Shown here: one piece after another, positions 802-22,777 of the stretch
Numbering within the stretch: the first letter of the stretch is position 1
Layout: every line of letters begins with the position of its first letter
NCBI RefSeq assembly: GCF_014960965.1
Contig: NZ_CP063169.1
Location: forward strand, 901,581 to 965,580
Source of the DNA: Ruania alkalisoli
GTDB taxonomy: Bacteria > Actinomycetota > Actinomycetes > Actinomycetales > Beutenbergiaceae
Reading direction: 5' to 3'
DNA length: 64,000 bases
Position numbers and translations under genes: made by a program
The notes under the pieces: model-generated
Databases searched by the model: none
What the model was told of the DNA's origin: nothing
The model's input: the letters and a program-made list of their open reading frames with translations, nothing else

Positions 802-850
802 GCCGGCATCGTGTCATCCGGGTCTGACATCGAGCGTCCGGCGCTGCGGC

Positions 851-856
851 TAGCAT
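851..856 (+). promoter_or_regulatory. -10 box of leaderless ROK-regulator gene
   Basis: TAGCAT (TANNNT) is followed by 6 nt and then the ATG at 863, so transcription should start at or next to the start codon. No Shine-Dalgarno sequence is present. A -35-like CTGACA at 824-829 is poorly spaced (21 nt). Confidence 0.55.
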
Positions 857-862
857 CAAAGC

Positions 863-2065
863 ATGCGACTGACGGAGACTGGCGCGCCGCTGGCCACCGC
901 GGTACGGGACCGTCACCTCTCCGCGGTGCTCGCAGCGCTGATGGACAAGCCGCTCGCGCGTAAGGAGATCGCCGAACGCACCGGCATCAGTTTCACCACC
1001 ATCACCGTGCTCGCCCAATTCCTGATTGCCTCCGGGCTGGTCGAGGAGGTCGCCAGCTCTGCTCCCGCGCGCTCCCGCGGGCGGCCGCGGACGCCGCTGC
1101 GTCTGGTCGAGGGGCGGCGAGGCAAGGTGGTCCTCGGGATCAACATCGGCGACTCCGACGTGGCGTGCGCTGCCTACTCACTGACCGGAGAACGGATCGA
1201 GGCTGCGGAGGAGGCCGTGCCCGGGCGAGAGCCGGGTCAGGTGCTTGAGGGCGTCGCGAGCCTCGCGCGGGGTGTGGTGGAGCGGATCGGCCGCTCGCGG
1301 GTGCTCGGGGTGGGGGTCAGCACTGGGGGTGTCATCGACTTCGAAGGAGGGCGAGTTGTCTACGGCCCGTTGCGTGGGTGGAAGGATGTCGAGGTTCGTG
1401 CGTACCTGACCGAGACCCTGGGGGTGCCGGTCGTGGTGGATGAGTCGGTGCGAACCTTGGCGTTGCTGCGCTTGTGGTGGGAGCGCGAGCAGGCCGACTC
1501 GATGATGGTCGTGTTCGCCCAGCGGGTTGTCGGATCGGCGCTGGTGATCCATGGCGAGCTCTACCGGGGGCCAGGTGCCACGGCCGGCGACATCAGTCAC
1601 ATGCCGGTGGCTGGTGGCCCCGGCATCCAGTGCCCGTGCGGCGCGGTCGACTGCGCGGGGATGCTTCTGACGAACACGGCAGTGCTCGAGCGTGCGATCG
1701 AGCTGGGACTGCTGCCTCCGGCCGCCCCGCCCAGTGCCATCAACGCGACCGCCGGCGCTAACGCCGAGCAGCTCGGCGAACTCCGGCGGGAGCGTGCGGT
1801 GCGGCTGGGCGAGACGATCGGTCATCTGCTGGAGATCATCGACCCGGAGAAGCTGATCCTCGTCGGCGGTATCGGCACCGCCGATGAGGTCGAGCTCTGC
1901 CTGGACACGGCGCGGCGGCGTGGGCGCACGACCACCGGCCGATCAGGCCATCAGATCGAGCACTGGTCCTACGACCACTCGATCTGGGCCCGGGCCTCTG
2001 CTGCCTTGGCCCTGGATGAGGTGATGCGTCACCCGACCCGTTCGCTCGACGCAGTGTCAGGGTGA
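863..2065 (+). CDS. ROK-family transcriptional regulator
   Basis: Sugar-responsive DNA-binding regulator (400 aa). A winged-helix HTH lies at about residues 17-62 (HLSAVLAALMDKPLARKEIA), followed by a ROK sugar-kinase-like domain from about residue 88. The zinc-binding cluster is intact (CPCGAVDC, 257-264, with an upstream SHM His). At the usual ROK kinase E-N-D active site the protein has D-E-S (193-195), so the catalytic Asp is Ser. I infer a sensor without kinase activity. It stands at the edge of the sulfatase/ABC-transporter island and converges on the sulfatase operon (9-bp gap), so it is the natural candidate to bind the shared operator at 5276-5291. The ligand is unknown. Confidence 0.88.
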   Translation: MRLTETGAPLATAVRDRHLSAVLAALMDKPLARKEIAERTGISFTTITVLAQFLIASGLVEEVASSAPARSRGRPRTPLRLVEGRRGKVVLGINIGDSDVACAAYSLTGERIEAAEEAVPGREPGQVLEGVASLARGVVERIGRSRVLGVGVSTGGVIDFEGGRVVYGPLRGWKDVEVRAYLTETLGVPVVVDESVRTLALLRLWWEREQADSMMVVFAQRVVGSALVIHGELYRGPGATAGDISHMPVAGGPGIQCPCGAVDCAGMLLTNTAVLERAIELGLLPPAAPPSAINATAGANAEQLGELRRERAVRLGETIGHLLEIIDPEKLILVGGIGTADEVELCLDTARRRGRTTTGRSGHQIEHWSYDHSIWARASAALALDEVMRHPTRSLDAVSG

Positions 2066-2074
2066 GCCTAGGCC

Positions 2075-3838
2075 TCACGCCCCGGCGGCCCCCAGATGAC
2101 GGCTCATGTGCTCGGCGATCCGCGGTAGATAGCGGTCCTGGGTGGCCGTCGGGGCGGTGAGTGCCGCCGTCAGTCGATCGGTCAGCGACGTGGGGATACG
2201 TCCTCGCTCGGCCAGCCGGTCGAGCGCGTTGGCGGACTGCAGGCGCACAGGTTCGTCGTCGTGGCCGAGCAGGGCGATGAGGTGCCCGATGGCGGCCTCG
2301 TCGGCCACGGCCTCGAGGGCGATGATCCGGATGCCCGGCACCGGGTCGTGCACCAGCAGCTCGAGCGTGCGTTGGTGCTCCTCGCGCAGTGCCGCATCGA
2401 TGCCCGGGTGCTCGGGGCAGGTCAGCGCCGCCTGGGCAGCCCGCGCGGCCCAGGCGCGGATGGCCGAGTGTGGATGCGTCGCGTGCTCGCCGCTAGGGAC
2501 CGGCTCGTGGCGGGCGACGGTGGCTGCCAGCGTCATGAGGGTGCCGAGGTCGCCGTCGCCGAGTGGCTCGAAGGAGCCCTCGAGGAGGAACCCGGTGTCG
2601 CCCACCTCCCGCATGTGGTCGTCGAGACTGGCGCTGAGACGGTCGCGGATGTCCGCATGGCGAGGGTCGCCGGCGAGGTTGTGCACCTCGTCCGGATCGG
2701 CCTGCAGGTCGTAGAGCGCCTCCGCGTGCTTGTGCTCCCAGAAGGTCCGCTGGACGGCGGGCAGGTCACCCGTGCGCGCGAGCTCCTCCCACTCCTGGAC
2801 CGACTGCTGCTGCCACATGTACCCCAGGTGCTGGCCTGCAGGCAGGCACGGCTGGTAGTTGCGCAGGTAGCGGAAGCGGTGGTCTCGGACGGTGCGCTGC
2901 AGGTCGTAGCGTTCGTCCATCCGGGACCGGCCGCCGAACACCAAGGTGGGCGCGGGGCGGCGGTGCGGGCCCAACGCGGCCCGGCCGTGCAGGTGGTCCG
3001 GTGGGCGGATCCCGGCCAGGCTGAGCACGGTGGCTGGCAGGTCCATCAGCGTGATCGCCTCGGCGGACGGGCCAGGATCTGCGGCTGCATGTGCGCGCCA
3101 ACGTTCCGGGACGTGTACGAGCAGGGGCACAGCGAGGCCCGAGTCGTAGCAGAAGCGTTTGCTGCGTGGCTGCACCCCACCGTGGTCGGCGTAGTAGACG
3201 ACGATCGTGTCCTCGCTCAGGCCGTCGCGCTCGATCTCGTCCAGGACGGTACCGATCTGGTCGTCCAGCCGGCTCATGTGGTCGTAGTAGTGGGCCAGAT
3301 CCGCGCGGACCGTCGCCGTGTCCGGCAGGTAGGCGGGCACGCGCACGCTGCCCGGGTCCGTGTCGGTCTGATCGTGACCGTCGAACAGGCAGCTCTCGTG
3401 GGTCTCCATGAAGTTGACCACGCTGAAGAACGGCTGGCCGGGTGCGCGGTCACGCCAGTGCGCGTCCTCGCTGCACTGGTCCCACGCCGCCTCGATCGAG
3501 ACCTTCGCGTTGTAGTCGGTCTTGCTGGCGTTCGTGCAGTAGTAGCCGACCTGGCGCAGGTACGCGGTGAACGGGTGCACATGGGGCGGAAGGTCCACGT
3601 TGGCCCGCATGTGCTCGGCGCCGGGGACCGACCAGGGGTACATCCCGGTGATGATGCTGAACCGGGATGGTGCACAGACGGGGGCGACGGCGTACGCCTG
3701 GTCGTAGCGGATCCCCTCGGCGGCCAGGGCGTCGAGCCGGGGGGTGTGCGCCACCGGGTCGCCGTAGCAGCCCAGGTAGCGTGAGTTGTCCTCACTGACC
3801 AGCCACAGGATGTTGGGCTGTGCTGTTGACGGCGGCAT
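2075..3838 (-). CDS. Sulfatase with C-terminal HEAT-like repeats
   Basis: Sulfate-ester (or N-sulfate) hydrolase of the formylglycine sulfatase superfamily, 587 aa. Seen: N-terminal metal-site strand with E16-D17 (LWLVSEDNS), and the formylglycine motif C-A-P-S-R with Cys55 (PVCAPSRFSIITG). The YYADHGG metal-ligand segment is near residue 220, followed by a Lys-containing loop. No signal peptide or membrane segment, so it should act in the cytoplasm. The last about 140 residues (from about 445) are Ala/Leu-rich helical repeats (VPGIRIIALEAVADEAAI) resembling HEAT repeats, an unusual addition. The overall pattern resembles heparan-N-sulfatase-like sulfatases, but the substrate cannot be read from sequence. 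Second gene of a two-gene operon, 22 nt after the upstream sulfatase, with SD GAAGGAG 4 nt before the ATG. Confidence 0.9.
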   Translation of the reverse strand: MPPSTAQPNILWLVSEDNSRYLGCYGDPVAHTPRLDALAAEGIRYDQAYAVAPVCAPSRFSIITGMYPWSVPGAEHMRANVDLPPHVHPFTAYLRQVGYYCTNASKTDYNAKVSIEAAWDQCSEDAHWRDRAPGQPFFSVVNFMETHESCLFDGHDQTDTDPGSVRVPAYLPDTATVRADLAHYYDHMSRLDDQIGTVLDEIERDGLSEDTIVVYYADHGGVQPRSKRFCYDSGLAVPLLVHVPERWRAHAAADPGPSAEAITLMDLPATVLSLAGIRPPDHLHGRAALGPHRRPAPTLVFGGRSRMDERYDLQRTVRDHRFRYLRNYQPCLPAGQHLGYMWQQQSVQEWEELARTGDLPAVQRTFWEHKHAEALYDLQADPDEVHNLAGDPRHADIRDRLSASLDDHMREVGDTGFLLEGSFEPLGDGDLGTLMTLAATVARHEPVPSGEHATHPHSAIRAWAARAAQAALTCPEHPGIDAALREEHQRTLELLVHDPVPGIRIIALEAVADEAAIGHLIALLGHDDEPVRLQSANALDRLAERGRIPTSLTDRLTAALTAPTATQDRYLPRIAEHMSRHLGAAGA

Positions 3839-3860
3839 TGCTCTCCTTCAAGTCGTCCGT

Positions 3861-5246
3861 TCAGCCGGGTAGGTCGGCGAACGGTGGGATCGGGTTCGGC
3901 GCCGGAACGCCGGCACCGATCTCGCTCAGGTAGTCGTCCAGCAGCCGGCCGAGTTCGGCGGCCCGGCGGGGATGCTCAGCGGCGACGTCCGACGACTCGG
4001 ACTCGTCGTCGGCCATCCGGTACAGCTCGTCGCGGTCGGTCTCGTAGTGGCGGACCAGCTTCCAGCGCCCCGCCCTGACGGCGGTCGCCGGGGTAGCGCC
4101 GCTGTGGCTGTAGTGCGGGTAGTGCCAGTAGATCGGACCGCGGTCCTGCTCCTCGCCGCGCAGCATCGGCGCGACATCGACACCGTCGATGCCGACCGGA
4201 GGGAGTGTCGCGTCCGTCGCGCTGTTCAGCGTGGGGAAAAGGTCCACCAGACTGACGGGGGCGTCGATCACCGCTCCCGCTCTGGTGACCCCAGGCCACC
4301 GGACGAGCAAGGGGACCCGCACTCCGCCGTCGTAGGTCCAACCCTTGCCCTCGCGTAGGGGAAGGTTGCACGTGGGTGCCACATCGGTGGAGGACAGGCC
4401 GCCGTTGTCGGAGGTGAGCACGATCAGGGTCCGATCGGCTCGCCCGGACTCGGAGATCGCATCGAGCAGCCGGCCGACATTCGCGTCGAGGTTCTCGATC
4501 ATGGCGGCGTAGCCGGGATCGCTCTGCGTGACGCGCCGGCGCACCAGGTGGTGGCGCCGGTGCCAGACCGGGTAGGGCTCACCGGTCTCGAATTCGGGCT
4601 GATCGTCGAGCAGAGAGCGCTTGCGTTCGTACTTCTCCACCAGCTCCGCCGGACCCTGGATGGGTGTGTGGACCGCGTAGTGCCACAGGTTCAGGAAGTA
4701 GGGCCGATCGCCTGCGGTGCGGATCAGGTCGATCGCCTCGTCGGTGAGCCGGTCGGTCAGGTACTCACCCTCGCGCCCATCCGGCAGGGTGTCGATGCCG
4801 TAGGGGCTGTGGTAGCTGCCCGGCCGGCCGCGTTCGCACCCTCCGACGTTGACGTCGAAGCCGTGCTGGTCCGGCCAGCTATGTCGTGGGCCGAGGTGCC
4901 ACTTGCCGACGTGCCAGGTGGCGTAACCTGCCTCGCGCAGCGTTCGCGCTAACGTCACCTCGTTCGCCGGGAGCGCCGGCAGCGTGGGCACCTCACCCAG
5001 CCGGCCGACGCCGTGGCCACCGATGAACTGCGTCAGCCCGATCCTGGCCGGATCGCGCCCGGTGAGGATGGCCGCACGGCTGGGGGAGCAGACCGGAGAA
5101 GGGGCGTAGGCCTGCGTGAACCGGGCGCCGGAGGACGCCAGCCGGTCGATGTGGGGTGTCTCGTAGAACGTGCTGCCCATGCAGGCCAGGTCACGCCAGC
5201 CCAGGTCGTCAATGACGATGAGCACGATGTCCGGTCGGTGAACCAC
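3861..5246 (-). CDS. Arylsulfatase-type sulfatase
   Basis: Formylglycine-dependent sulfatase of 461 aa, normal full length for the arylsulfatase A-like branch. Seen: VIDDLGW with the metal pair D13-D14, C-S-P-S-R with Cys53 (PVCSPSRAAILTG), the conserved VGKWHLG Lys/His segment near residue 115, and SDNGG near 285. No export signal, so probably cytoplasmic; activation needs a formylglycine-generating enzyme that is not in this window. GTG start at 5246 chosen because a promoter (-35 TTGATT, -10 TACGGT) ends 6 nt before it and no SD is present, which points to leaderless translation. First gene of the minus-strand sulfatase operon, divergent from the transporter operon. Confidence 0.92.
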   Translation of the reverse strand: MVHRPDIVLIVIDDLGWRDLACMGSTFYETPHIDRLASSGARFTQAYAPSPVCSPSRAAILTGRDPARIGLTQFIGGHGVGRLGEVPTLPALPANEVTLARTLREAGYATWHVGKWHLGPRHSWPDQHGFDVNVGGCERGRPGSYHSPYGIDTLPDGREGEYLTDRLTDEAIDLIRTAGDRPYFLNLWHYAVHTPIQGPAELVEKYERKRSLLDDQPEFETGEPYPVWHRRHHLVRRRVTQSDPGYAAMIENLDANVGRLLDAISESGRADRTLIVLTSDNGGLSSTDVAPTCNLPLREGKGWTYDGGVRVPLLVRWPGVTRAGAVIDAPVSLVDLFPTLNSATDATLPPVGIDGVDVAPMLRGEEQDRGPIYWHYPHYSHSGATPATAVRAGRWKLVRHYETDRDELYRMADDESESSDVAAEHPRRAAELGRLLDDYLSEIGAGVPAPNPIPPFADLPG

Positions 5247-5252
5247 CCGTCC

Positions 5253-5280
5253 ACCGTAGCGACCTTCGCTATTTAATCAA
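5253..5280 (-). promoter_or_regulatory. Promoter of sulfatase operon (leaderless)
   Basis: On the minus strand: -35 TTGATT (5280-5275), 16-bp spacer, -10 TACGGT (5258-5253), then 6 nt to the GTG at 5246. The -35 lies within the inverted repeat at 5276-5291. Confidence 0.6.
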
Positions 5281-5291
5281 ACCACCTTGAT
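5276..5291. promoter_or_regulatory. Candidate operator shared by divergent promoters
   Basis: Perfect inverted repeat ATCAA-N6-TTGAT in a locally AT-rich stretch. It covers the -35 elements of both the sulfatase operon (minus) and the beta-helix/transporter operon (plus), so one bound repressor could shut both. Assignment to the ROK regulator at 863-2065 is inference. Confidence 0.5.
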
Positions 5292-5315
5292 CTATACGGG
5301 TTCCGGTGCTAGCGT
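5287..5315 (+). promoter_or_regulatory. Promoter of beta-helix/ABC transporter operon
   Basis: -35 TTGATC (5287-5292), 17-bp spacer, -10 TAGCGT (5310-5315). Good match to an actinobacterial housekeeping-sigma promoter. Predicted start near 5322, giving a leader of about 70 nt. Confidence 0.6.
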
Positions 5316-5390
5316 CCTCGCAACCCGCTGGAAAAACACAGAGAGGTGTGTCCCGTGCAGCACGACAAGCAGGTACAGGAATCCCAAACG

Positions 5391-7625
5391 ATGAAGCGAC
5401 GTGTGTTCCTGGGGACGGCGTCCGCTGGTCTCGTCTCGGCGATCGCAGCCGGACCCGCGGTTGCGGCGTCGCCGGGTTCGGGCCCGCTGCCAGCCGGCCT
5501 CGGAGCCGGTCGGTCCTGTGCTGCACCGGTGGTACCGGAGGCGGTTCCCTCCTCGGAGCTGATCCGGTTCCCGGAGGCTGCGTATGCGACTGAGCCGGAT
5601 GCGCCGGGCGTGCTGAACGTGAAGACCCTGTTCGGCGCTGTGGGCGATGGCGTGACCGATGACACCGATGCGATCATCGCCGCGATCGACGCAGTGGAAG
5701 GCGGCATTGCCGACTCCATCCCGGAGGAGCGCCCATTCCACATCGGACCGCTCACGACGCAGAAGGTCATCTACTTCCCCGAGGGCACCTACCTGGTCTC
5801 CCGGACTCTCGTCTACTCCTTCCCCTACTTCACAACACGCCCCACCACCACCATCGAGGGCCATACCTCACTGCGACTACGAGGTGAGTCGCAGACCGGC
5901 ACCGTCATCAGGCTGGCCGACAACGCCCCCGGCTTCGGCGAGGGAGAGCAGCGCCCGGTGCTCGCCTGGGGAAAGGCATACGAGAACGACAACCCGTACA
6001 ACAACACTGCCGGCTCCAACTTTCTCGAGAACCTCACAGTCGATACCGGCAGCGGCAACTCCGGCGCGATCGGCGTGATCCTCAGCGGATCGAACTGCAA
6101 CGCATTGCGGAACGTCACGATCCGCAGCGGTGACGGTGCCGGTGTGGCCGGGCTGGACCTGTTCGTGGCCGGTACGCAGTGGTACGGCTACAACGTCGAT
6201 ATCCACGGGTTCGATGTCGGTGTGCGGTTCGCCGACACCGGTGCGGCCTGCTGCGGGTTCGAACGGTTCAGCCTGTACGACCAGAACGTGCACGCCGTCG
6301 AGGTGACGTTCGGTTCGTTGTCGCTGTTCAACCTGCGCACCAACGGCTCGGTCCCGGCGGTCGTCGTCGATGGCGAGGGCGCGATGGCCACGATCACGGC
6401 GAGCGACCTGCGAACCGACGCCGCCGGTCTTGCGGCGATCACGCTCGGTAGGGGAGCACTCGCGGTCCGCGACGTGGCCGTCTCCGGTTTCGCCAGCGGG
6501 ATCGAGCGTGACGGTGCCGTGGTCGAACCGGCATCCATCGGGCACTACGTCTCCGAAGGGCCGTTCACGGCGTTGCCGACCGAGCCTGCGACAGCGCTGG
6601 GTCTGCGGCCGCCTGCGCCGGGAGGGTTCACCTGCCCGCCGGGGCGTGCCGGCGCGTTGGGATACCCGCCCGGGCGCCCCTACGAGCACAGCTGGGGCGA
6701 CCCGTCGACCTGGGTGAGTGTGGCCGATTTCGGTACCGTGGCAGACGCCATCGCTGATGACACGGCGGCGATCGCGGCCGCCTTCGCTTCGGGCGCGGCG
6801 ACGATCTGGTTCCCGCCGGGACAGTACCGCGTCACCGACACGATCGAGATCCCGGGCTCGGTGAACCGCATCAACTTCATGTACTGCCGCATCAACGTCG
6901 ACGAGGTCTTGGTGCAGCCCGCGGGAACGTCGGTCGAGGACGAGTACAGCGTCTTCCGGATCACCGGCTCCTACGACGACGAGCCCCTCCTTCTCGAGGA
7001 TCTCTACACACGCCCGATGCCGTCCGTCCCGGGCGCTTACCGGATGTTCGAGCACGCTTCGGACCGCACGCTACTCATGCAGGACATGCATCTGCACCAA
7101 GCGGCGGCGTACCGGAACACGGCGCCTGGTGGCGTCGTGCACTTCGAGGCCGTCGCGAGCCGCACCAGCGGTGTGGGCGAAGGCAACCCGGCCATCGTCC
7201 TCGATGGCGGGAAGGTCGCCTGGGCTCGCCACATCAACCCCGAAGACGGCTTCCCCGACATCCTCGTGCGCGGCGGTTCCCAGCTGTGGGTGCTCAGCAT
7301 GAAGAAGCAGAACAAGGGCACGATGCTGCACGTCGAGGGGAACTCCGTGGTGGAGATCCTCGGCGCCATCGTCTTCGGCGGACGTACGGAGGACGGGATC
7401 CCGCTGATCCGGTGCATCGACTCCACCGTGAGCGTCTCGCTCGCCCACCGCACCGCACCGGGCATCCTGCGCGGGTACACGCCACTGGTGCACGAGACCC
7501 GCGACGGTGTGGACGGGTACGTCCACGACAGTGAGCTCCCGGCCCGCAACGTTCCCCCGCTCTCGGATGCCGAACGCTTCCTGCCCCTGTACGTGGCGCG
7601 CCACACCGCCGCACAGCCGATCTGA
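5391..7625 (+). CDS. Tat-exported pectate-lyase-like beta-helix protein
   Basis: Probable extracellular polysaccharide lyase or hydrolase with a right-handed beta-helix (Pectate_lyase_3 type). The ATG at 5391 gives 744 aa that begin directly with a twin-arginine signal (MKRRVFLGT, then an Ala-rich h-region ending AVAAS). A GTG at 5346 would add 15 residues before the signal and is less likely. Two copies of the family's opening pattern are visible: LFGAVGDGVTDDTDAI with VIYFPEGTYLVS near residues 70-130, and VADFGTVADAIADDTAAI with IWFPPGQYRVTDTI near 430-480. This suggests two helix domains. I cannot identify catalytic residues, so it could also be a binding or scaffold protein. It leads the operon that feeds the ABC importer, and is the only clearly exported enzyme of the island. 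Confidence 0.75.
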   Translation: MKRRVFLGTASAGLVSAIAAGPAVAASPGSGPLPAGLGAGRSCAAPVVPEAVPSSELIRFPEAAYATEPDAPGVLNVKTLFGAVGDGVTDDTDAIIAAIDAVEGGIADSIPEERPFHIGPLTTQKVIYFPEGTYLVSRTLVYSFPYFTTRPTTTIEGHTSLRLRGESQTGTVIRLADNAPGFGEGEQRPVLAWGKAYENDNPYNNTAGSNFLENLTVDTGSGNSGAIGVILSGSNCNALRNVTIRSGDGAGVAGLDLFVAGTQWYGYNVDIHGFDVGVRFADTGAACCGFERFSLYDQNVHAVEVTFGSLSLFNLRTNGSVPAVVVDGEGAMATITASDLRTDAAGLAAITLGRGALAVRDVAVSGFASGIERDGAVVEPASIGHYVSEGPFTALPTEPATALGLRPPAPGGFTCPPGRAGALGYPPGRPYEHSWGDPSTWVSVADFGTVADAIADDTAAIAAAFASGAATIWFPPGQYRVTDTIEIPGSVNRINFMYCRINVDEVLVQPAGTSVEDEYSVFRITGSYDDEPLLLEDLYTRPMPSVPGAYRMFEHASDRTLLMQDMHLHQAAAYRNTAPGGVVHFEAVASRTSGVGEGNPAIVLDGGKVAWARHINPEDGFPDILVRGGSQLWVLSMKKQNKGTMLHVEGNSVVEILGAIVFGGRTEDGIPLIRCIDSTVSVSLAHRTAPGILRGYTPLVHETRDGVDGYVHDSELPARNVPPLSDAERFLPLYVARHTAAQPI

Positions 7626-7637
7626 AGGAGACCGTAG

Positions 7638-8606
7638 GTGACGCAGACCATCAGTCGCAGCGGCCGGCGGGCAGGTGGCACCGCCGCTCCGTCAGGCAGT
7701 CCCCCTGCTACCGGCCGCAAGCCGTGGCGCCGCCGCGACCGCGCGATCGCGAGCGTGGCCGTCCTGCCCCTCCTGCTGCCTTTCGTCCTGTTCGCTCTGG
7801 TGCCCATCGGCTACGTCGTCTACCTCAGTTTCACCAAGTACAACGGCGTTCTCGACCCGGTCTGGGTGGGCCTGAGCAACTACGAGATCCTCATCACGGA
7901 CACGGTGTGGTGGCGGTCGGTACGCAACACGCTGATCTTCGGTGCTGGGTCGGTGGTGTTCGAGATCCCGCTCGCGCTGGGCCTGGCGCTCCTGCTCAAC
8001 AGGCGGGTGCGCTTCGGTGGCGGCTTCCGGGCGATCTTCTTCATCCCCAACGTGGTCTCCATCGCCGTGATCGGCATCGTCTTCTACTTCCTGCTGCGCC
8101 CGGTCGACGGCGTGATCAACGGCCTGCTCAGCTGGACGGGGCTGGTCCCCGAGCACTACGACTGGCTCGGCTCGGGACCGAGCGCGATGGCCAGCCTGAT
8201 CGCGATCGGCGTGTGGTCCGGGTTCGGGGTCAACACGGTGTTCTTCCTTGTCGGTCTGCAGACGATCCCGAAGGAGGTGGTGGAGAGCGCCACCCTGGAC
8301 GGTGCCACCGGCTGGAAGCACTTCTGGCACATCACGTTGCCGCTGCTGGCACCGATCCTGCGGGTGGTCATCATGCTCACGATTATCTTCACGATGCGCT
8401 CGTTCGACATCGTCAAGACCCTCACCGACGGCGGACCGGCGGGCCAGACCGAGGTGATGTTCACCTACCTGTTCGGCTACTTCTTCAGCCTCGATCGCGG
8501 CGCGCAGTACGGCTACGCCTCGGCGCTCGCAGTGGTCGCGAGCATCATCATCGCGATCATCTCCCTGATCTACATGCGGTTCAGCCGGGACGGAGGTTCC
8601 CGATGA
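7638..8606 (+). CDS. Carbohydrate ABC transporter permease, MalF/UgpA type
   Basis: Inner-membrane subunit of a sugar importer (322 aa, six predicted membrane segments). The cytoplasmic EAA loop that docks the ATPase is at about residues 213-236 (ESATLDGATGWKHFWHITLP). The Arg/Gly-rich N-terminal tail of about 35 residues is cytoplasmic. GTG start at 7638 has AAGGAG 7 nt upstream and lies 12 nt after the beta-helix gene. Its stop overlaps the next permease start (ATGA). No ATPase gene is in the operon; the UgpC-type ATPase at 31092-32216 is a likely partner. Confidence 0.93.
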   Translation: MTQTISRSGRRAGGTAAPSGSPPATGRKPWRRRDRAIASVAVLPLLLPFVLFALVPIGYVVYLSFTKYNGVLDPVWVGLSNYEILITDTVWWRSVRNTLIFGAGSVVFEIPLALGLALLLNRRVRFGGGFRAIFFIPNVVSIAVIGIVFYFLLRPVDGVINGLLSWTGLVPEHYDWLGSGPSAMASLIAIGVWSGFGVNTVFFLVGLQTIPKEVVESATLDGATGWKHFWHITLPLLAPILRVVIMLTIIFTMRSFDIVKTLTDGGPAGQTEVMFTYLFGYFFSLDRGAQYGYASALAVVASIIIAIISLIYMRFSRDGGSR

Positions 8607-9475
8607 GCCCGACGACGCAGATGCGCGGGGGATACCGTGCGCGCCAGCGCACCGCGAACGTGGCGACCTACATCATTCTGATCTCGGTGGCGATCCTCAC
8701 GCTGCTGCCTCTCGTGTACGCCTTCTTCGCCTCCTTCAAACCACTGGACGAGCTGCTCTCACAGGGCGCGCAGCTCTTCCCGGAGGAGTGGACGACAGGC
8801 AGCTATCAGGAGGTCTGGGAGCTGGGTGGGTTCCAGCGCTACTTCATGAACTCCATCCTGGTGGCGGCGGGTGTGGTCGCGGTCGACTTCTTGATCGCCT
8901 CCCTGATCGGGTGGATGCTCGCCCGCAACCTCCTCGTCTACGGCCGCGCACTGTCCGCTGTCATGGCGAGCGTGCTCTTCATCGGCGTGGGCACCGCAAC
9001 GCTGTACCCACGCTTCCTCATCGCCCAGGCTCTCGGTATCGACAACCTCATCGGCATCATCCTGGTGGAGGTCTCCGGCATGTCGGTGATCCACACCTTC
9101 CTGGTCCGGGCGTTCGTGCAGACCCTGCCACCGGAGCTGGAGGACGCCGCGCGCGTGGACGGCTGCCGGACCTTCGGGGTCTACCGCAGGATCTCCCTGC
9201 CCCTGATGCGACCGATCCTGACCACCACGGTGATCCTCGCTTTCCAGGCTGCGTGGAATAACTTCCAGATCCCGTACGTGTTCACGCTCGCTCAACCGGA
9301 GATGCGCACACTCGTCGTCGGCGTGTACGCCCTGCGAACAGGGGGTGAGGTGACCGATCCCTACCACCTGATGATCGCCGGAGCGATGGTGGTGATCGTC
9401 CCGATCGTGGTCGTGTTCCTGCTGTTGCAAAGGCACTTCATGCGCGGGATGACCGAAGGCGGCGTGAAGGCATGA
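8603..9475 (+). CDS. Carbohydrate ABC transporter permease, MalG/UgpE type
   Basis: Second permease of the importer, 290 aa, six predicted membrane helices. EAA motif at about residues 180-203 (ELEDAARVDGCRTFGVYRRI). The start is the ATG of the ATGA overlap with the MalF-like gene; upstream sequence in the same frame belongs to that gene. It overlaps the following membrane-protein gene by the same 4-nt arrangement, which implies translational coupling. The product should form the translocation pore with the 7638 product and receive substrate from the lipoprotein at 10095. Confidence 0.93.
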   Translation: MSPTTQMRGGYRARQRTANVATYIILISVAILTLLPLVYAFFASFKPLDELLSQGAQLFPEEWTTGSYQEVWELGGFQRYFMNSILVAAGVVAVDFLIASLIGWMLARNLLVYGRALSAVMASVLFIGVGTATLYPRFLIAQALGIDNLIGIILVEVSGMSVIHTFLVRAFVQTLPPELEDAARVDGCRTFGVYRRISLPLMRPILTTTVILAFQAAWNNFQIPYVFTLAQPEMRTLVVGVYALRTGGEVTDPYHLMIAGAMVVIVPIVVVFLLLQRHFMRGMTEGGVKA

Positions 9476-10098
9476 ACAGCGCAAGCGTTCTCGAGTCCCG
9501 CTGGCACCGTGTGCTCGCCGTGTACGCCGATCTGGTGAAACTGTGCGCAATCACCGCGCTGCTCAGCCTCGGGGTGGTCACCATCCCGGTCGCGCTCGCC
9601 ACGGCCTACGACGGCGTCCGGCACCTGGTGCGCACTGGTGACCTTCCGCCCTCGGGCAGGGCTGTGCAGGAGCTGTGGCGCCCTGCCACCGTGACCGGTC
9701 TGCCGCCTCTTGCCCTCGGAGCCGGAGCGGTCCTCATCGTGGTGCGCTCGCCGTCGCCCTTTCTCAGCGCGGCCGCCCTGGCCATCGCAGTGATCACGAT
9801 CATCGTGCTCGTGCGTGCCGCGGCCACGATCTCCCGTTCACCCGGAGCGACCGATGCTGCGGCGTGGCAGAGGGTGCTGCGCGATCTCGTGCTGTACCCC
9901 GCGCAGACCGTGCTTCTCGTCCTGCCATGGGCAGTGGTCGCCCTCGTCGTGGTGTTCGTGCCGGTAGCGATGACGGTCCCGCTCTGGTGCGTCGCACTCT
10001 CCCTCCCACCGTGGGCCGGTGTGCTCACCGTCCGGTGGGCATCCACCCTCCTCACAACCCGTTCCACGCACGTCCTGACAGAGAGGTCAATCCCATGA
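9472..10098 (+). CDS. DUF624/YesL-like membrane protein
   Basis: Small integral membrane protein (208 aa) with about five hydrophobic segments, near residues 22-45, 73-90, 96-118, 142-160 and 163-185. Length, topology and position inside a sugar ABC operon match the DUF624/YesL family, whose members often sit beside carbohydrate importers. The family's function is unknown; a role in transporter assembly or sensing is only inference. It is linked to both neighbours by 4-nt ATGA overlaps. Confidence 0.55.
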   Translation: MNSASVLESRWHRVLAVYADLVKLCAITALLSLGVVTIPVALATAYDGVRHLVRTGDLPPSGRAVQELWRPATVTGLPPLALGAGAVLIVVRSPSPFLSAAALAIAVITIIVLVRAAATISRSPGATDAAAWQRVLRDLVLYPAQTVLLVLPWAVVALVVVFVPVAMTVPLWCVALSLPPWAGVLTVRWASTLLTTRSTHVLTERSIP

Positions 10099-11450
10099 CA
10101 CGACAACAGCTCCGGCGCCGTGGGCGCCTCCTCGGCGTCGGCGCCACCGTGGCCGCGCTGCTGGCCACTGCCGCATGCGGCGGCCCCGATACACCCGGTG
10201 GCGGAACAGAGGGTGGCGGCGTCGGCTCCGAAGGTCCCGTGACCGTCTGGACCGACAGCGGCGTCGACGCCCAGCTCGTGGAGCAGTATCTGAGCGACTG
10301 GGCCGAGGAGAACGGTGTCGACCTGACCGTCGAGCACCAGGTGGGCAACGAGTACCAGCAGACCATCCAGTTGGCGTTGCAGACCGGGAACGGCCCGGAC
10401 GTGTTCGCCGGCAACCGCACCAACGTGCTCATCGCAGCCGGCTACGTGATGCCGCTGGACGACTTCGTCACCGACGACATCCGCGAGGCATACGGCGACC
10501 TGCTCGACCCGCCGCAGACCTACATGTCGGGCGGGAGCCTGTACACCCTCCCCAGTTCGATCACGACGACGAGGCTGGCCTACAACCGGGACATCTTCAC
10601 CGCGGCCGGTCTCGATCCGGATGCCCCGCCCGAGACCCTGGGTGAAATGCGCGAAGCCTGCGAGGCGATCGTCGCGGCCGGAGACGCGTCCTGTGTCGGC
10701 GTCCCGCTGAACTGGAACGGCTTCGCCACGTGGTATGTCGACCGGATGGCGGCCTCCTCCGACGACGATCTGACCGTGCAGGGCGCGTTCCGGCTCAGCG
10801 AGCAGCAGTACGACTTCAGTGTCTACGAACCCGTGATCGAGTTCTTCCGCGAGGCAGTGGCGCAGGGCTGGGCCTACCCCGGCGCCAGCTCTGTGGCCAA
10901 CGACATCATCCGCACCGAGTTCGCCGCCGGAAACATCGGGATGGTGATGTCGGCCTCCTGGGACGTCGGGGAACTCAACGAGGTCCTGAACACCGAGATC
11001 GGCTGGTCGGCCAGCAACATTCCGGTGCCCGACGGTGCGGAGTTCGTGCAGAACCTCGGCAGCAGCGGTGGCGGCTGGGCGATCAATGCCGCGACCGAAG
11101 CACCCGAGACTGCCGGGGCGATCGTGATGGCCCTCGCGAGCCCCGAGGTCGCCGAGATGAACGCCGCTGAGTTCGCCACCATGCCGATCCGCCCCGACGT
11201 CGAGATGCCGGACCGCGACGACCAGCTCCTCGACTACGCGCCGACCGATACCGACAACCCGACCCTCAACTCTCCCGTCGCAGGGCTCGCGATCCAGGGA
11301 GAGACCTATCGGGATGTCCTCACCGCGCTCGTGCTCGGCGATGAGGAGATCGCGCCAGCGCTGCAAGAGCTCACCGACCGCTACAACGCCGCCCTCGACG
11401 AGGCCGTGGAGGACGGTTCGGTGAACCTGGCTGACTACGCCGGGTCCTGA
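10095..11450 (+). CDS. Extracellular sugar-binding lipoprotein (SBP family 1)
   Basis: Substrate-binding component of the ABC importer, 451 aa. The start is the ATG of the ATGA overlap at 10095, which gives a lipoprotein signal: Arg-rich n-region, hydrophobic core and lipobox LATAAC with Cys28. A Gly/Pro/Glu linker follows, then a two-lobed binding fold starting VTVWTDSGVD. Family features include FAAGNIGMVMSASWDVGEL in the second half. Anchored to the outer face of the membrane by lipidation. A strong hairpin lies just after the stop (11462-11499), which often keeps binding-protein mRNA more abundant than the downstream enzymes. Confidence 0.93.
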   Translation: MTRQQLRRRGRLLGVGATVAALLATAACGGPDTPGGGTEGGGVGSEGPVTVWTDSGVDAQLVEQYLSDWAEENGVDLTVEHQVGNEYQQTIQLALQTGNGPDVFAGNRTNVLIAAGYVMPLDDFVTDDIREAYGDLLDPPQTYMSGGSLYTLPSSITTTRLAYNRDIFTAAGLDPDAPPETLGEMREACEAIVAAGDASCVGVPLNWNGFATWYVDRMAASSDDDLTVQGAFRLSEQQYDFSVYEPVIEFFREAVAQGWAYPGASSVANDIIRTEFAAGNIGMVMSASWDVGELNEVLNTEIGWSASNIPVPDGAEFVQNLGSSGGGWAINAATEAPETAGAIVMALASPEVAEMNAAEFATMPIRPDVEMPDRDDQLLDYAPTDTDNPTLNSPVAGLAIQGETYRDVLTALVLGDEEIAPALQELTDRYNAALDEAVEDGSVNLADYAGS

Positions 11451-11461
11451 CGCATCACCCA

Positions 11462-11499
11462 CGGTTCGGCGGTCGGGTACCGGCTCGACCGCCGAACCG
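11462..11499 (+). terminator. Intercistronic hairpin after binding-protein gene
   Basis: Perfect 14-bp stem (CGGTTCGGCGGTCG and its complement) with a 10-nt loop and no T-run. It stands 11 nt after the binding-protein stop and 41 nt before the next gene of the same direction, so it may be a partial terminator or an mRNA-stabilising structure. Confidence 0.6.
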
Positions 11500-11539
11500 A
11501 CCCGCAGACCGACATCCCACGAACGCCTGGAGACCCTTG

Positions 11540-12913
11540 ATGCCACGAGATGGACAGCACCGTCCGGACCTGCCGGACGTGGTGGTCATCCACTGCCACG
11601 ACCTGGGCAGACACCTCGGCTGTTACGGTGCCGCCACCGTGGCCTCCCCCCACCTCGACGCACTGGCCGCCGAAGGTGTGCTGCTCGAGCAGATGTTCGC
11701 CGCCGCTCCGCAATGCAGCCCCTCGCGCGCTGCGCTGTTCACCGGCCGGTGGCCGCATACCGCCGGTGTGCTCGGCCTGACGCACCACACCTTCGGCTGG
11801 GACCTGAACGCGGGTGAGAAGCACCTGGCCCGGCACCTCGGCGAGGCCGGATACCGCACCGAGCTTGTCGGGGTGATGCACGAGGCGCGGCGCGGCAGCA
11901 ACGAGCAGATCGCCGCCGCCCTCGGGATCGACAGGGTCAGGACCGGGGGGCGGCACATGCAGGTCGCGGAGGCTGCCGAGGAGGCGGTTGCGCGGCTGGC
12001 CGGCGAGCCGGAGCCGTACTACCTGCAGGTCGGGTTCTCCGAACCGCACCGGTTGCCCGGAGAGCACGACGCCCCGGGCGTGATGGGTTTCCTGGGCGAC
12101 GAGATCAGCCCCGACCAGAGTCTGGGTGTCCAGGTGCCGGCTTACCTGGAGGACACCGCGTCCGCCCGCGAGGAGGTGGCCGAGCTGCAGGGCGCCATCC
12201 GGGCGATGGACAGCGCTTCCGGCCGGGTGCTCGCGGCGATCGAGGCCGGTGGGCGTGCACACAACACCGTGGTGGTGTTCACCACCGACCATGGCCTTGC
12301 CCTGCCGCGCGCCAAGTGCTCGCTCTACGACCCGGGTCTTGAGGTGGCGTTCATCGTCCGTTGGCCGGCCGGTGGGTGGGACGGCGGACGCCGCCTGCAC
12401 CGCGCGCGCACCAATATCGACGTCGTCCCCACCCTGCTGGATGCGCTCGGGCTCGAATCCACGGATGCGCCCCCGATGCACGGGGAGAGCTTCGCCGCAG
12501 ACCTGGGCGGCGCCTTGGAGGTGGATGACCCCGAGGAGGTGATCTACGGTGAGATGACGTACCACGACTACTACGACCCACGGCGGTGCATCCGCACCCC
12601 CCGGGCCAAGCTCATCGTGAACTTCACCTCGGCCCCGGAGTTCATGGACCCGAGCCAGTCCTGGAACCGCCGATGCGTGCCCGTCGAGCGCCGGAACGGC
12701 AACGCCGGATCGCACCCTACGGTCGAGCTGTACGACCTCCTCGCCGATCCGCTGGAGCTGACCAACATGGCCGAGGACCCGGCCTACGCTCAGACGCGTG
12801 CCGACCTGCTGCGCCAGCTCGGCGACTGGATGCTGCAGACCCAGGATCCGCTGCTGGACGGAGCGGTGACCTCGCCGCTGCACCAGGACAGCCTGAAGGC
12901 GGTCCGGGGGTGA
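11540..12913 (+). CDS. Sulfatase (heparan-N-sulfatase-like)
   Basis: Third formylglycine sulfatase of the island, 457 aa. C-S-P-S-R motif with Cys59 (PQCSPSRAALFTG), FTTDHGLALPRAK near residue 250, and a GWDLN segment near 90. The usual N-terminal Asp-Asp metal pair reads H-D here (VIHCHDLG). No signal peptide. ATG at 11540 preferred over the TTG at 11537 because GGAG lies 7 nt upstream. Its stop overlaps the GTG of the next gene (GTGA), so it is co-translated with the GH36-like enzyme. The similarity to sulfoglucosamine sulfohydrolases is an impression from motifs, not an alignment. Substrate unknown. Confidence 0.88.
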   Translation: MPRDGQHRPDLPDVVVIHCHDLGRHLGCYGAATVASPHLDALAAEGVLLEQMFAAAPQCSPSRAALFTGRWPHTAGVLGLTHHTFGWDLNAGEKHLARHLGEAGYRTELVGVMHEARRGSNEQIAAALGIDRVRTGGRHMQVAEAAEEAVARLAGEPEPYYLQVGFSEPHRLPGEHDAPGVMGFLGDEISPDQSLGVQVPAYLEDTASAREEVAELQGAIRAMDSASGRVLAAIEAGGRAHNTVVVFTTDHGLALPRAKCSLYDPGLEVAFIVRWPAGGWDGGRRLHRARTNIDVVPTLLDALGLESTDAPPMHGESFAADLGGALEVDDPEEVIYGEMTYHDYYDPRRCIRTPRAKLIVNFTSAPEFMDPSQSWNRRCVPVERRNGNAGSHPTVELYDLLADPLELTNMAEDPAYAQTRADLLRQLGDWMLQTQDPLLDGAVTSPLHQDSLKAVRG

Positions 12914-14247
12914 GTGACCGCGTGACGTTCCGCGTTCCGTGCGCCGGTCCGGTGCTACTGCCTGCGCTCAACGCCTGGGGTCAGGACGTCTACCTCCAGC
13001 AGGCGGACTTCGAGCTCGACCCGGTCACGGTCGCGGCGTCGTCCACGTCGGGGTCTCCCGTGCTCCTGGCCGAGGGTCTGTTCGTGGGTGTTCTCTCACC
13101 GATGCCCGGGACGAGGTTTCGCCGGGTGGACGGTGTGCTGGAGGTCAGCTCCGAGGCCGACCTATTCGTGCGTACCGGTGCCGAACCGTTCGACGCCTGG
13201 GCCGAGTACTCCCGTGTGGTCATCGGCGGCGGGTGGCGCACCGGCCCGACCAGTGCTTTCCACGACGCGGTCGAGTACTGCACCTGGGTGGAGCAGAAGG
13301 CTCGAGCGACGCGGACCGGGGGGACGGCGCGCGAAGCACTCGACGAGGGGATGCTGAACGAGTTCCTGGACCGTATTGATGCGATGGACCTGCCGCGCGG
13401 CAAGGTGACCATCGACGACGGCTGGGCACCCGGGAACGCCCCGGGCGGGGTCGGTGACTGGGAGCCGGACACCGAGCGCTTCGCCGACCTGGACAAGACC
13501 GCGGCCCGCATCCGCGCCCGCGGGCACGTCCCCGGCCTGTGGTTCGCCCCAGGTCGCGCGGCGCTGCGATCGGCCTTCCGGGCCGCGGACCCGGCGGCCT
13601 TCCACCCGGTGGCCGATGGCGCCGCCGAGACGGGGAGCCGGGTGGCCGAGGAGTGCTACGCGGACGCCACCAGCACCGTTCTCGACCACTACCGCCGGGT
13701 ATTCGGCCGGTACGCCGGGATGGGCTTCGAAAAGTTCAAGCTCGACCTGTACTACGGCCCGAAACACCGGATGACCTCCCAGCTGCAGCTCGCCTACGCC
13801 GCCATCAAGGAGATCGACCCCGGCCTGGAGGTGGAGCACCACGTGCCGGACGTGTTCGCCAGCAGATGGGCCGACGTCGTCCGCAGCAACGACGTCCTCG
13901 TCGGGCCCGGGCGGCCGTGGCGTTCGGTGGCCACGGCGCACTGGCTGATCACGCGCTGGTCGGCGCCCGACACGGTGGTCAACCTCGATCACATCGGTGG
14001 CAACGCGGCCGACGTGACGGCCGAGGACTTCTGCGCGCACCTGGACCTGATGGACGGTGAGTACGGGCACCCGGTGGTCAGCCTGCTTCCGGACCGGTTC
14101 GGTGACGAGGTCGTCCAGCGACTGCGGCACTCCCTGGCGACCCACCACGCGGCCAGGCCGTTGCAGACCAGACCGCCGGCTCCGCCGTCGTGGGAGGACT
14201 ACCAGCAGGCACGGGCCGAGCTACGGGCACGGGAGGATGAGGCATGA
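12910..14247 (+). CDS. GH36-like TIM-barrel glycoside hydrolase
   Basis: Probable cytoplasmic glycosidase of 445 aa. The start is the GTG in the GTGA overlap with the sulfatase gene. An N-terminal beta-rich part covers about 1-115. The barrel follows, with IDDGWAPG (168-175), a hallmark of alpha-galactosidase-like GH36 enzymes, and FKLDLYYG, where Asp279 sits at the K-x-D nucleophile position of GH31/GH36 enzymes. It is shorter than classical GH36 alpha-galactosidases (about 700 aa), and the acid/base residue is not obvious to me. Coupled by overlaps to the sulfatase before and the FAD oxidoreductase after, so the three probably act on the same imported sugar. Confidence 0.65.
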   Translation: MSDRVTFRVPCAGPVLLPALNAWGQDVYLQQADFELDPVTVAASSTSGSPVLLAEGLFVGVLSPMPGTRFRRVDGVLEVSSEADLFVRTGAEPFDAWAEYSRVVIGGGWRTGPTSAFHDAVEYCTWVEQKARATRTGGTAREALDEGMLNEFLDRIDAMDLPRGKVTIDDGWAPGNAPGGVGDWEPDTERFADLDKTAARIRARGHVPGLWFAPGRAALRSAFRAADPAAFHPVADGAAETGSRVAEECYADATSTVLDHYRRVFGRYAGMGFEKFKLDLYYGPKHRMTSQLQLAYAAIKEIDPGLEVEHHVPDVFASRWADVVRSNDVLVGPGRPWRSVATAHWLITRWSAPDTVVNLDHIGGNAADVTAEDFCAHLDLMDGEYGHPVVSLLPDRFGDEVVQRLRHSLATHHAARPLQTRPPAPPSWEDYQQARAELRAREDEA

Positions 14248-16505
14248 CCGCGGGCATGGTGCGCACGGACGACTACCACGTGGATGTCGCTGTGATCGGC
14301 GGGGGCCTGGCAGGAGTGTGCGCCGCGATCGCGGCGGCACGGCAAGGCGCGGACGTCGCCCTGGTGCAGAACCGCCCGGTGCTCGGCGGCAACTCCTCCA
14401 GCGAGGTGCGGGTGTGGGTGTGCGGTGCGACGGCGCACGGGGTGCACCACTTCGCGCGCGAGACCGGGATCATGGGCGAGCTGTTTGTGGAGAACCAGTT
14501 CACCAACCCCGAGGGCAACCCGTACTACTGGGACCTGGTGCTGCTCGAGGCCGTGCGCGCCGAGCCGCGGATCCAATTGTTCCTGAACACCGACGTGACC
14601 GACGTCGAGGCGAGCGGCCCGGACGATGCGCGCCGAATCCACGCCGTGACCGGGTGGCAGTCCGGATCCGAACGGCGTGTCCGCGTGAGCGCCGGCGCCT
14701 TCGTCGACGCCACCGGGGACGGGCTCGTGGGGTACCTCGCCGGTGCCTGGTACCGGCTCGGCCGGGAGGCCCGGGAGGTCTACGGGGAATCGTGGGCACC
14801 GGAGGTCGAGGACGGGGCGACGCTGGGATCGACGATCCTGTTCTACTCCACCGATGCCGGCCGGCCGGTGAAGTTCGTGCCGCCGTCCTTCGCCGTCGAC
14901 ATCATGAAGACCGCCATCCCGGAGCTGCGACCCATCAGCGTGGAGGCGAAGGGCTGCCGCTACTGGTGGATCGAGTGGGGCGGCGAGCTGGACGTGGTCG
15001 CCGACAACGAGCGCATCCGGGATGAGCTGCAGGGTGTGGTGTACGGGATCTGGGACTACATCAAGAACTCCGGGAGGTTCGACGCGGACAGCCTGACGTT
15101 GGAGTGGATCGGGTCGGTCCCGGGCAAGCGGGAGTACCGCAGGTTCGAAGGTGGGTACACGCTCACCCAGCACGACGTGCTCGACCAGACCGTGTTCGAC
15201 GATCGCGTGGCCTTCGGGGGCTGGTCCATCGATCTGCATCCCCCGGGCGGGGTGTATGCCACGGAGAAGGGCTCGCGGCACTGGCACCCGGACGGGAACT
15301 ATCACATCCCGCTGCGCTGCCTGTACTCGGCGAACGTGACGAACATGTGGATGGGGGGCCGCAACATCTCCGCTTCGCACGTGGCGTTCGGTTCGGTCCG
15401 GGTGATGGCCACCTGTGGCTTGACCGGTGAGGCCGCGGGTCTCGGTGCCGCGGTCGCGCTCGCGGAGGGGGTCAGTCCGGCCGAGCTGGCGACGCAGCGG
15501 TTCGACGTGATGCGGCGGGCGCTGATCCGTTCGGACGCGTCGGTGCTCGGCTTGGTGCACGAGGACCCGGCCGACCTGGCGCTGCAGGCCAGCGTGGACG
15601 TCTCCTCCACCTGGGACCGCGTGGAGGAGACCGGCGCCGTCTCGGGCTCCTACCCGCTGACGAACCATCTGGGGATCCTCGTGCCCGTGGCGCCGGCGAT
15701 CGACGGGGTGCAGGTGCAAGTCGATGCCTCGCGGGACACCGAGTTGGTTGCGGAGCTCTGGAGAACCGGGGCGCCCCATGTCTACCTGCCGAAGCAGCAG
15801 GTGGCCGTGGAGCGCGTGGGTGTTCCCCAGGGGAAGGGTGGGTGGGTACGCCTTCCCCTGGCCTGGCGGCCGAAGACCGAGTGCAACGCGGTCATCGTGC
15901 TGAGGGCCAATCCGGACGTGACAGTCTGCCTGCAGGACGAACCGATCCCCGGGGTGGCCACGATCGGGCACAAACCCTTGCCCGATGGCGAAGCCATGCC
16001 GGAGATCTGGCGGTACTGGCGGCAGGCGCTCGAGCATCACGTGCCGCGGCTGCGGTTGGACGCACCGACGGCCGCGTATGCGCCGCGGCGTGCGGTCGGC
16101 GGCTACGCGCGCCCCTATGCTGGTCCGCAGATGTGGGTCTCCGCCCCGTTCGCGGAGGACCCCGAGCCCTGGCTGCAGCTGACCTGGCATGCTCCGGCCG
16201 ATGTGGGCGAGGTGACGATTGTCTTCGACGACGATGTGCAGGAGGACCTCGTCAACCTGCACCGTCACCGCACACCGTTCGAGGTGCTGCCGACTCTGGT
16301 GCGCGACTACCGCGTCGAGGTGGTGCCGGAAGGCGCCGACGAGTGGCAGGTCGTGGCCGAGGTGACCGGGAACCGGGTCCGGCACCGCCGCCATGAGCTG
16401 TCGCGGCGGGTGACGCGGCTGCGGGTGGTCGTCTCGGCGACGAACGGTGTGCAATCCGCGCGGATCGTCTCGGTGCGGGCGTGGGCAACTGCCGGTCAGC
16501 AATGA
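14244..16505 (+). CDS. FAD-dependent oxidoreductase with C-terminal beta-rich domain
   Basis: FAD_oxidored-family protein of 753 aa. Rossmann motif GGGLAG at 19-24 (VDVAVIGGGLAGVCAAIAAA), followed by LGGNSSSEVRVWVCGA, typical of the family found in carbohydrate loci. The FAD domain runs to about residue 420 (ATCGLTGEAAGLGAAVA). The remaining about 330 residues contain beta-sandwich-like stretches, perhaps sugar-binding. No signal peptide. ATG at 14244 overlaps the GH36-like stop (ATGA). Oxidation of a sugar or uronate hydroxyl is plausible, but the reaction is unknown. Last gene of the island; a strong hairpin follows. Confidence 0.8.
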   Translation: MTAGMVRTDDYHVDVAVIGGGLAGVCAAIAAARQGADVALVQNRPVLGGNSSSEVRVWVCGATAHGVHHFARETGIMGELFVENQFTNPEGNPYYWDLVLLEAVRAEPRIQLFLNTDVTDVEASGPDDARRIHAVTGWQSGSERRVRVSAGAFVDATGDGLVGYLAGAWYRLGREAREVYGESWAPEVEDGATLGSTILFYSTDAGRPVKFVPPSFAVDIMKTAIPELRPISVEAKGCRYWWIEWGGELDVVADNERIRDELQGVVYGIWDYIKNSGRFDADSLTLEWIGSVPGKREYRRFEGGYTLTQHDVLDQTVFDDRVAFGGWSIDLHPPGGVYATEKGSRHWHPDGNYHIPLRCLYSANVTNMWMGGRNISASHVAFGSVRVMATCGLTGEAAGLGAAVALAEGVSPAELATQRFDVMRRALIRSDASVLGLVHEDPADLALQASVDVSSTWDRVEETGAVSGSYPLTNHLGILVPVAPAIDGVQVQVDASRDTELVAELWRTGAPHVYLPKQQVAVERVGVPQGKGGWVRLPLAWRPKTECNAVIVLRANPDVTVCLQDEPIPGVATIGHKPLPDGEAMPEIWRYWRQALEHHVPRLRLDAPTAAYAPRRAVGGYARPYAGPQMWVSAPFAEDPEPWLQLTWHAPADVGEVTIVFDDDVQEDLVNLHRHRTPFEVLPTLVRDYRVEVVPEGADEWQVVAEVTGNRVRHRRHELSRRVTRLRVVVSATNGVQSARIVSVRAWATAGQQ

Positions 16506-16524
16506 GCATGCACAGCGCGAGAAT

Positions 16525-16552
16525 CGCCTCCGGCTCCGGTGAGCCGGAGGCG
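16525..16552 (+). terminator. Terminator hairpin after glycan operon
   Basis: Perfect 12-bp GC-rich stem (CGCCTCCGGCTC with its complement) and CGGT loop, 20 nt after the oxidoreductase stop, without a T-tract. I see no gene in the rest of 16506-16721. Confidence 0.75.
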
Positions 16553-16709
16553 CCATCGTCGACGGATTCCTCCGCGTGCACTTCTCGGACATGAGGGCCG
16601 ATCCGGGTGGGAAGCCGAACCTGGCGACCGAGGAGACCCGGCCCGTGGCCGCGTGCGGACCGGCACGCTCCGCACCGCGTCGAAGGGAGCGAACCTCACC
16701 TCCCGTCGC

Positions 16710-21342: not shown

Positions 21343-21363
21343 GAGATCGCTGGCGTGAGGGCC

Positions 21364-21392
21364 TTGACATCGCCGCTGCGGCAAGTCACCAT
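21364..21392 (+). promoter_or_regulatory. Promoter of sugar-binding lipoprotein gene
   Basis: Perfect -35 TTGACA (21364-21369), 17-bp spacer and a weak -10 CACCAT (21387-21392). The -10 abuts the operator at 21391-21408, so repressor binding would cover the transcription start. Confidence 0.55.
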
Positions 21393-21408: not shown

Positions 21409-21455
21409 TTCGAGTGACGAGCAACGGCGCATCGGAGCGCCGGGATGGAGCCGAC

Positions 21456-22763: not shown

Positions 22764-22777
22764 GAACCCAGCACTCG

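Follow-up and report, generated by a model that had tools for sequence, protein, structure and literature searches.

A Ruania alkalisoli gene island predicted to import sulfated oligosaccharides and desulfate them in the cytoplasm

Actinobacterial desulfation inside the cell has a described precedent in Bifidobacterium breve, and a review gives GlcNAc-6-sulfate as the sulfated sugar on which the intracellular sulfatases of strain UCC2003 act (PMC7326374). The lambda-carrageenan locus of Pseudoalteromonas distincta combines S1_8-type sulfatases with alpha-galactosidases in a stepwise desulfation and cleavage of galactose, but it belongs to a Gram-negative, periplasmic system that also uses GH150, GH110, GH2 and S1_15 enzymes (PMC12549532). 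Here we analyze a gene island at positions 863-16505 of a 64,000-nt stretch of Ruania alkalisoli NZ_CP063169.1 (the window, whose numbering is used throughout). No match to the GH150, GH110 or GH2 glycosidase families was found in the island. The B. breve UCC2003 cluster of Egan et al. 2016 is said to hold a maturase beside one sulfatase, whereas the Ruania island has three sulfatases, a formylglycine-generating enzyme (FGE) encoded elsewhere, a CUT1-type importer, a relative of glycoside hydrolase clan GH-D and a flavoprotein. The scheme is already known, but the gene combination did not occur in the genomes searched, and the GH-D relative (hereafter GH36L) and the flavoprotein are probably its newest parts.

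The island reads most readily as a set of catabolic genes, gained by horizontal transfer, for the use of a sulfated oligosaccharide, likeliest a 2-O/4-O sulfated, galactose-containing one, that would be trimmed outside the cell, imported and desulfated inside; we put the probability of this reading at about 0.6. An initial annotation had proposed the same order of events, which fits the gene anatomy, and every gene that it listed is present (three sulfatases, a beta-helix protein with a twin-arginine translocation (Tat) signal, a CUT1 importer without ATPase, a GH36-like enzyme and a FAD_oxidored protein). In the proposed pathway, the Tat-exported beta-helix enzyme would trim the glycan extracellularly, and the lipoprotein binder and CUT1 permeases would import the sulfated pieces with the power of a shared ATPase encoded elsewhere. 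With a cytosolic FGE to mature them, the three formylglycine sulfatases would then take off sulfate in the cytoplasm; GH36L would cut a desulfated, alpha-galactoside-like end, the flavoprotein would oxidize or reduce the sugar or oligosaccharide, and the ROK protein would sense the inducer. Gene content, motifs, the presence of an FGE and the insertion were observed directly, whereas localization, activities, substrate and regulation are inferred. The window proteins were scanned with Pfam and NCBIfam, and export signals were judged by eye and hydrophobicity alone. The features are as follows.

863..2065, plus strand: ROK-family regulator with MarR-like helix-turn-helix and ROK domains (Pfam ROK 93.4 bits, MarR_2 27.2 bits)
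2075..3838, minus strand: sulfatase A, CAPSR motif, HEAT-like C-terminus (PF00884; HEAT 24.5 bits)
3861..5246, minus strand: sulfatase B, CSPSR motif, S1_16-like (PF00884; 6ust 485 bits, 9fo1 398 bits)
5391..7625, plus strand: beta-helix protein, predicted to be exported by a Tat-type signal (PF12708 in two stretches)
7638..8606, plus strand: permease 1, CUT1-type (BPD_transp_1 64.7 bits)
8603..9475, plus strand: permease 2, CUT1-type (BPD_transp_1 44.9 bits)
9472..10098, plus strand: small membrane protein, weakly MusI-like (NF052431 34.1 bits, under the cut-off of 160)
10095..11450, plus strand: solute-binding lipoprotein (SBP_bac_1 97.8 bits; lipobox LATAAC by eye)
11540..12913, plus strand: sulfatase C, CSPSR motif, SGSH/S1_8-like (PF00884; 4mhx 114 bits, 9bb9 (S1_8A) 107 bits)
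12910..14247, plus strand: GH36L, remote clan GH-D relative (three-member profile comparison and motifs)
14244..16505, plus strand: FAD_oxidored flavoprotein with C-terminal CBM32/discoidin-like domain (PF12831 318.9 bits; structure model)
16525..16552, plus strand: perfect 12-bp inverted repeat 3′ of the last gene (repeat search)
845..16659, no strand: segment missing between alkA and cysS of the closest congener (DNA comparison)
27908-29716: GH2 gene, in the window, 11 kb beyond the island
31092..32207, minus strand: orphan UgpC-type sugar ABC ATPase (NF008653 465.8 bits vs cut-off 432)

The island is an insertion, because in all seven congeners alkA and cysS (named by Pfam) are spaced by about 0.1-1 kb with no island protein match between them. 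In the closest congener, G411, which lacks the segment listed above, DNA identity was 95% over cysS. The ogt-alkA region (window 1-801 and DNA to its left) was 82% identical to G411 and the flanking DNA 93-95% (93-94% on the left); this dip looks like a sign of recombination, and a tract of ~20 kb extending left beyond the window start probably came from another strain. Left of the window (G000:C1:898807-900996; C1 is the host contig), ogt and an ABC exporter gene enclose a second beta-helix gene of Tat type, which shares 59% identity with that of the island and was not found at this place in G411. Its reading as a pseudogene was rejected; the reported TGA is its own terminal stop. The end regions of the island showed no direct repeats, and its Pfam hits included no integrase or transposase. 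That unrelated sugar genes have gathered loosely at an insertion hot spot, without a common pathway, would agree with the varying neighbor gene sets among the relatives examined and with the insertion of the second beta-helix gene on the far side of ogt-alkA. We nevertheless regard this as very improbable, since five junctions that point the same way overlap by 4 nt and the genome has a parallel locus built much like the island.

The parallel locus (C1:450000-469999) encodes ROK and LacI regulators, a beta-helix protein, a solute-binding protein, permeases, a DUF624 protein, sulfatases and an alpha-amylase-family enzyme, whose gene has a 4-nt overlap with that of a sulfatase C paralog (53%). 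At least one other module of the host genome is thus similar to the island. A locus of identical composition was not found in the genomes examined, in agreement with the initial annotation, which had been unable to name one; several protein searches, run class- or phylum-wide, scored only 2-4 candidates per genome and are weak negatives. In one such search, FAD relatives appeared at E 1e-100 in the host genome alone, yet another scan found many elsewhere. Titles and abstract openings in the open-licence literature gave no paper on Ruania and sulfatases and no locus of such composition.

Sulfatases A, B and C all scored above the PF00884 cut-off, and no export signal was visible by eye in any of them. 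The host genome (4.45 Mb, single contig) holds 31 sulfatase-family genes (32 rows in the genome list, two of them halves of sulfatase A), all with CxPxR. By inspection, one has a clear Tat signal (C1:484248), one is unclear and 29 have none. For the island, desulfation in the cytoplasm is therefore well supported, yet it is probably general across this genome. The initial annotation had set the island apart from Bacteroidetes loci that desulfate outside the cytoplasm; this overstated the surprise, given the 29 host sulfatases that show no export signal and the intracellular enzymes described in B. breve. The pathway had also been made dependent on an FGE, and an FGE-family protein is indeed encoded at C1:1449800 (E 1.2e-75). 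It shows no export signal by eye and carries CHDSYC, which we take to be the active-site pair; a second, weaker FGE-family match scored 46.6 bits. These observations suggest that actinobacteria consume sulfated glycans and may remove the sulfate after import.

Sulfatase-family matches in seven other genomes of the genus numbered 5 to 57, the 57 being in congener G407 (4.8 Mb); the remaining seven genomes of the genus had 5-32 each.

The nearest solved relative of sulfatase A was 9bba (S1_8C; 246 bits over residues 7-421), followed by 9bb9 (218 bits), and SGSH reached 96 bits. S1_8C is an exo-galactose-2-sulfatase of the lambda-carrageenan cascade, and S1_8A is read by the authors as a galactose-2-sulfatase that acts on the monosaccharide (PMC12549532). 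For sulfatase C, SGSH came first and S1_8A second, at the scores listed. The closest solved relatives of sulfatase B are HhSulf (6UST) and AMOR_S1_16A (9FO1), both S1_16; AMOR_S1_16A has a signal peptide (PMC11760155), whereas none was visible by eye in sulfatase B. Metal, Lys and His positions of sulfatase B were retained in alignments with solved relatives. According to the same paper and a review, the substrates of characterized S1_16 enzymes are 4S-Gal/GalNAc, kappa-carrageenan ends or 6S-GalNAc (PMC11760155). Because of the nearest relatives of the three sulfatases and the GH36 relative, a 2-O/4-O sulfated galactoside is our best guess for the substrate, with moderate confidence.

The same scheme of import and desulfation could instead serve a piece of a host-type glycan bearing GalNAc/Gal 4-sulfate and GlcN N-sulfate, such as a mucin, glycosaminoglycan or ganglioside-like one. 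The best match of sulfatase B, 6ust, is named a GalNAc-6-sulfatase, the S1_16 subfamily includes 4S-Gal/GalNAc enzymes, and SGSH is nearest to sulfatase C. A second GH36L region, described below, encodes a DHDPS-family aldolase, possibly of NanA type, along with three BNR/LamG proteins. On the other hand, the island matched no family of uronyl hydrolases, lyases or hexosaminidases, sulfatase A is far nearer to carrageenan S1_8C than to SGSH, and the aldolase fell under the cut-off of all seven NCBIfam families listed. On balance a host-type glycan seems unlikely.

The window GH36L protein had no Pfam hit and a single weak NCBIfam match (19.5 bits), and showed no export signal by eye. A profile of its three full-length members reached the GH36 alpha-galactosidase 1zy9 with E 8.5e-8 (the best match in the Protein Data Bank), with the KxD stretch included, and Melibiase-like proteins with a probability of 99.4% over 215 columns. 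The initial GH36-like call was thus right, but the relationship is remote. For Melibiase PF02065 itself, the window and Paenibacillus members gave no match and the member from genome G134 scored 30.4 bits against a cut-off of 27. IDDGW and K277-x-D279 were kept in all three members and GDW in two; the K-x-D aligns with the KxD of 1zy9, and its Asp is presumably the nucleophile. IDDGW and KxD are likewise in the barrel core that all three have in common with the GH36 alpha-galactosidases 1ZY9 and 6LCJ, although only about 100-220 columns align, at remote E-values. A single-protein model was discarded (predicted local distance difference test score (pLDDT) 36). GH36L thus looks like an apparently unnamed family of clan GH-D and offers a candidate new glycosidase family; because it is a GH36 relative, an alpha-galactoside-like end is suggested.

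GH36L is sparsely distributed. Within the class, where 2-4 candidates per genome were scored, 35 of 394 genomes (the host's own included) matched at E 1e-5, the only other full-length protein being that of G134 (60%). At E 1e-20, none of the 23 other genomes of the family matched, and a plasmid search gave no match. Among 49 genomes with a FAD relative, one, Paenibacillus sp. HB172176, had GH36L (39%). All three full-length genes sit behind CUT1-type importers, with a sulfatase adjacent in two. The G134 region holds a sulfatase together with the BNR/LamG proteins and aldolase mentioned above. In Paenibacillus sp. HB172176, the GH36L gene overlaps a gene for a 737-aa protein without Pfam hit, and an arabinose/fucose-isomerase-like gene is nearby.

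The flavoprotein model had a mean pLDDT of 80.5, falling below 50 in several inner stretches. Its flavin part was most like fumarate reductases and FixC (Foldseek, whole-model, low TM-scores), and its C-terminal domain resembled CBM32-type folds with Z 15-18 over about 130 residues, in a Z-scored list that re-ranks the Foldseek matches and is not an independent search. One scan gave 127 relatives, in Actinomycetota and Bacillota by record titles, and the best 80 of these 127 were examined for neighbors. At a distance of up to seven called genes, each of two permease clusters, presumably of CUT1 type, was present in 63 of the 80 loci; regulators varied (RpiR, AraC, IclR, LacI), a BNR_4 cluster occurred in 17/80, and GH35 and GH42 clusters in 5/80 each. 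With permeases, binding proteins and ROK removed, 97 neighbor genes were scanned (of 116 listed, part of 237), and no enzyme partner stood out: among the 25 families shown, none exceeded 3/97. Relatives of GH36L and the beta-helix protein occurred in 0/80 loci. Searches with sulfatases A, B and C detected a sulfatase in 4/80 loci, as against the 63 with permease clusters, and the flavoprotein was therefore rejected as a sulfation marker; in this respect the initial annotation, which had made it part of a desulfation island, did not hold. In genome G209, a sulfatase B relative (56%) adjoins a FAD relative (54%). We take the flavoprotein to be a redox enzyme that probably acts on imported sugars, of a family that is widespread in Actinomycetota and Bacillota and is found there next to sugar-type importers. 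The open-licence literature yielded no report of the family's reaction or of PF12831 with a sulfatase.

A flavoprotein paralog (65%) at C1:2614000-2633999 has an RpiR regulator and CUT1-type permeases as neighbors; these 20 kb showed no relative of the island sulfatases.

Because this family often accompanies a regulator and a CUT1-type importer without a recurring depolymerase, the substrate might be sulfated but small, either a short glycoside or a plant or microbial compound, with the beta-helix protein as a side activity. Three different sulfatase types and a CBM32-like domain better fit a multiply sulfated oligosaccharide, and we regard the small-molecule substrate as distinctly improbable. 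A bolder proposal is that GH36L founds a new clan GH-D family for imported, formerly sulfated galactosides, with the CBM32-tailed flavoprotein oxidizing the sugar ring (3-keto type) in the same cytosolic, redox-assisted pathway; we consider this combination rather unlikely.

Several observations weigh against a horizontally acquired locus for sulfated galactosides. The flavoprotein keeps company with sulfatases in few loci, as noted. The sulfatase subfamilies were assigned by nearest solved relatives rather than by SulfAtlas, and S1_8 also includes N-sulfoglucosamine (GlcNS) and xylose-2-sulfate enzymes (PMC12549532), so that galactose is not forced. In sulfatase B, Phe74 replaces the Trp at subsite 0 that PMC11760155, from which the residue roles are taken, links to 4-O specificity. 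In its four aligned relatives this residue is F, W, Y and F, and a review reports this Trp in just 37% of S1_16 sequences, making Phe74 compatible with the subfamily. Sulfatase B also has H-S in place of the N-Q pair near O2, where the four relatives have N-Q in three cases and N-N in one. No beta-galactosidase is encoded in the island, the GH2 gene of the window lying outside it. The G134 GH36L locus has its BNR/LamG proteins and aldolase by the sulfatase, and no relative of sulfatases A-C was found in the Paenibacillus GH36L stretch. Finally, G+C was 0.686 in the island and 0.690 in the rest of the window, and there is therefore no compositional sign of a distant donor.

The importer parts in the island are the binding protein and two permeases, which we take to be of CUT1 type; there is no ATPase gene. 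The orphan UgpC-type ATPase, ~15 kb from the island and inside the window, could energize this importer and is a candidate shared ATPase for CUT1 importers. The small membrane protein at 9472..10098 had no Pfam hit; in the parallel locus, the DUF624 protein occupies the same place 3′ of the permeases. The beta-helix protein carries MKRRVFLGTASAGLVSAIAAGPAVAA near its N-terminus, a Tat-type signal by eye that includes KRRVFLG. It matched 5m5z and 3eqn, which we take to be GH55 structures, weakly (38-44 bits; 42-47 bits with a two-member profile), suggesting a remote GH55-type relative and a candidate extracellular depolymerase.

All 11 island genes were recovered alike by the open reading frame list and a gene caller based on codon usage, whose training set included some of them. 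The genes of sulfatases A and B are separated by 22 nt on the minus strand, and from 5246 to the start of the beta-helix gene there is a divergent spacer. On the plus strand follow the beta-helix gene, the two permeases, the weakly MusI-like membrane protein, the binding lipoprotein, sulfatase C, GH36L and the flavoprotein, with the 4-nt start/stop overlaps at 8603, 9472, 10095, 12910 and 14244. The reading frame of the beta-helix gene is already open from GTG 5346, and that of sulfatase C has an alternative open start at TTG 11537. The ROK protein is the likely regulator of the island. The inverted repeat at 16525..16552, not reported by a terminator scan, is a possible transcription end. A further sugar locus occupies window 20344-29716, with LacI-type regulators, a binding protein recognized by eye, ThuA, Gfo/Idh/MocA and the GH2 enzyme.

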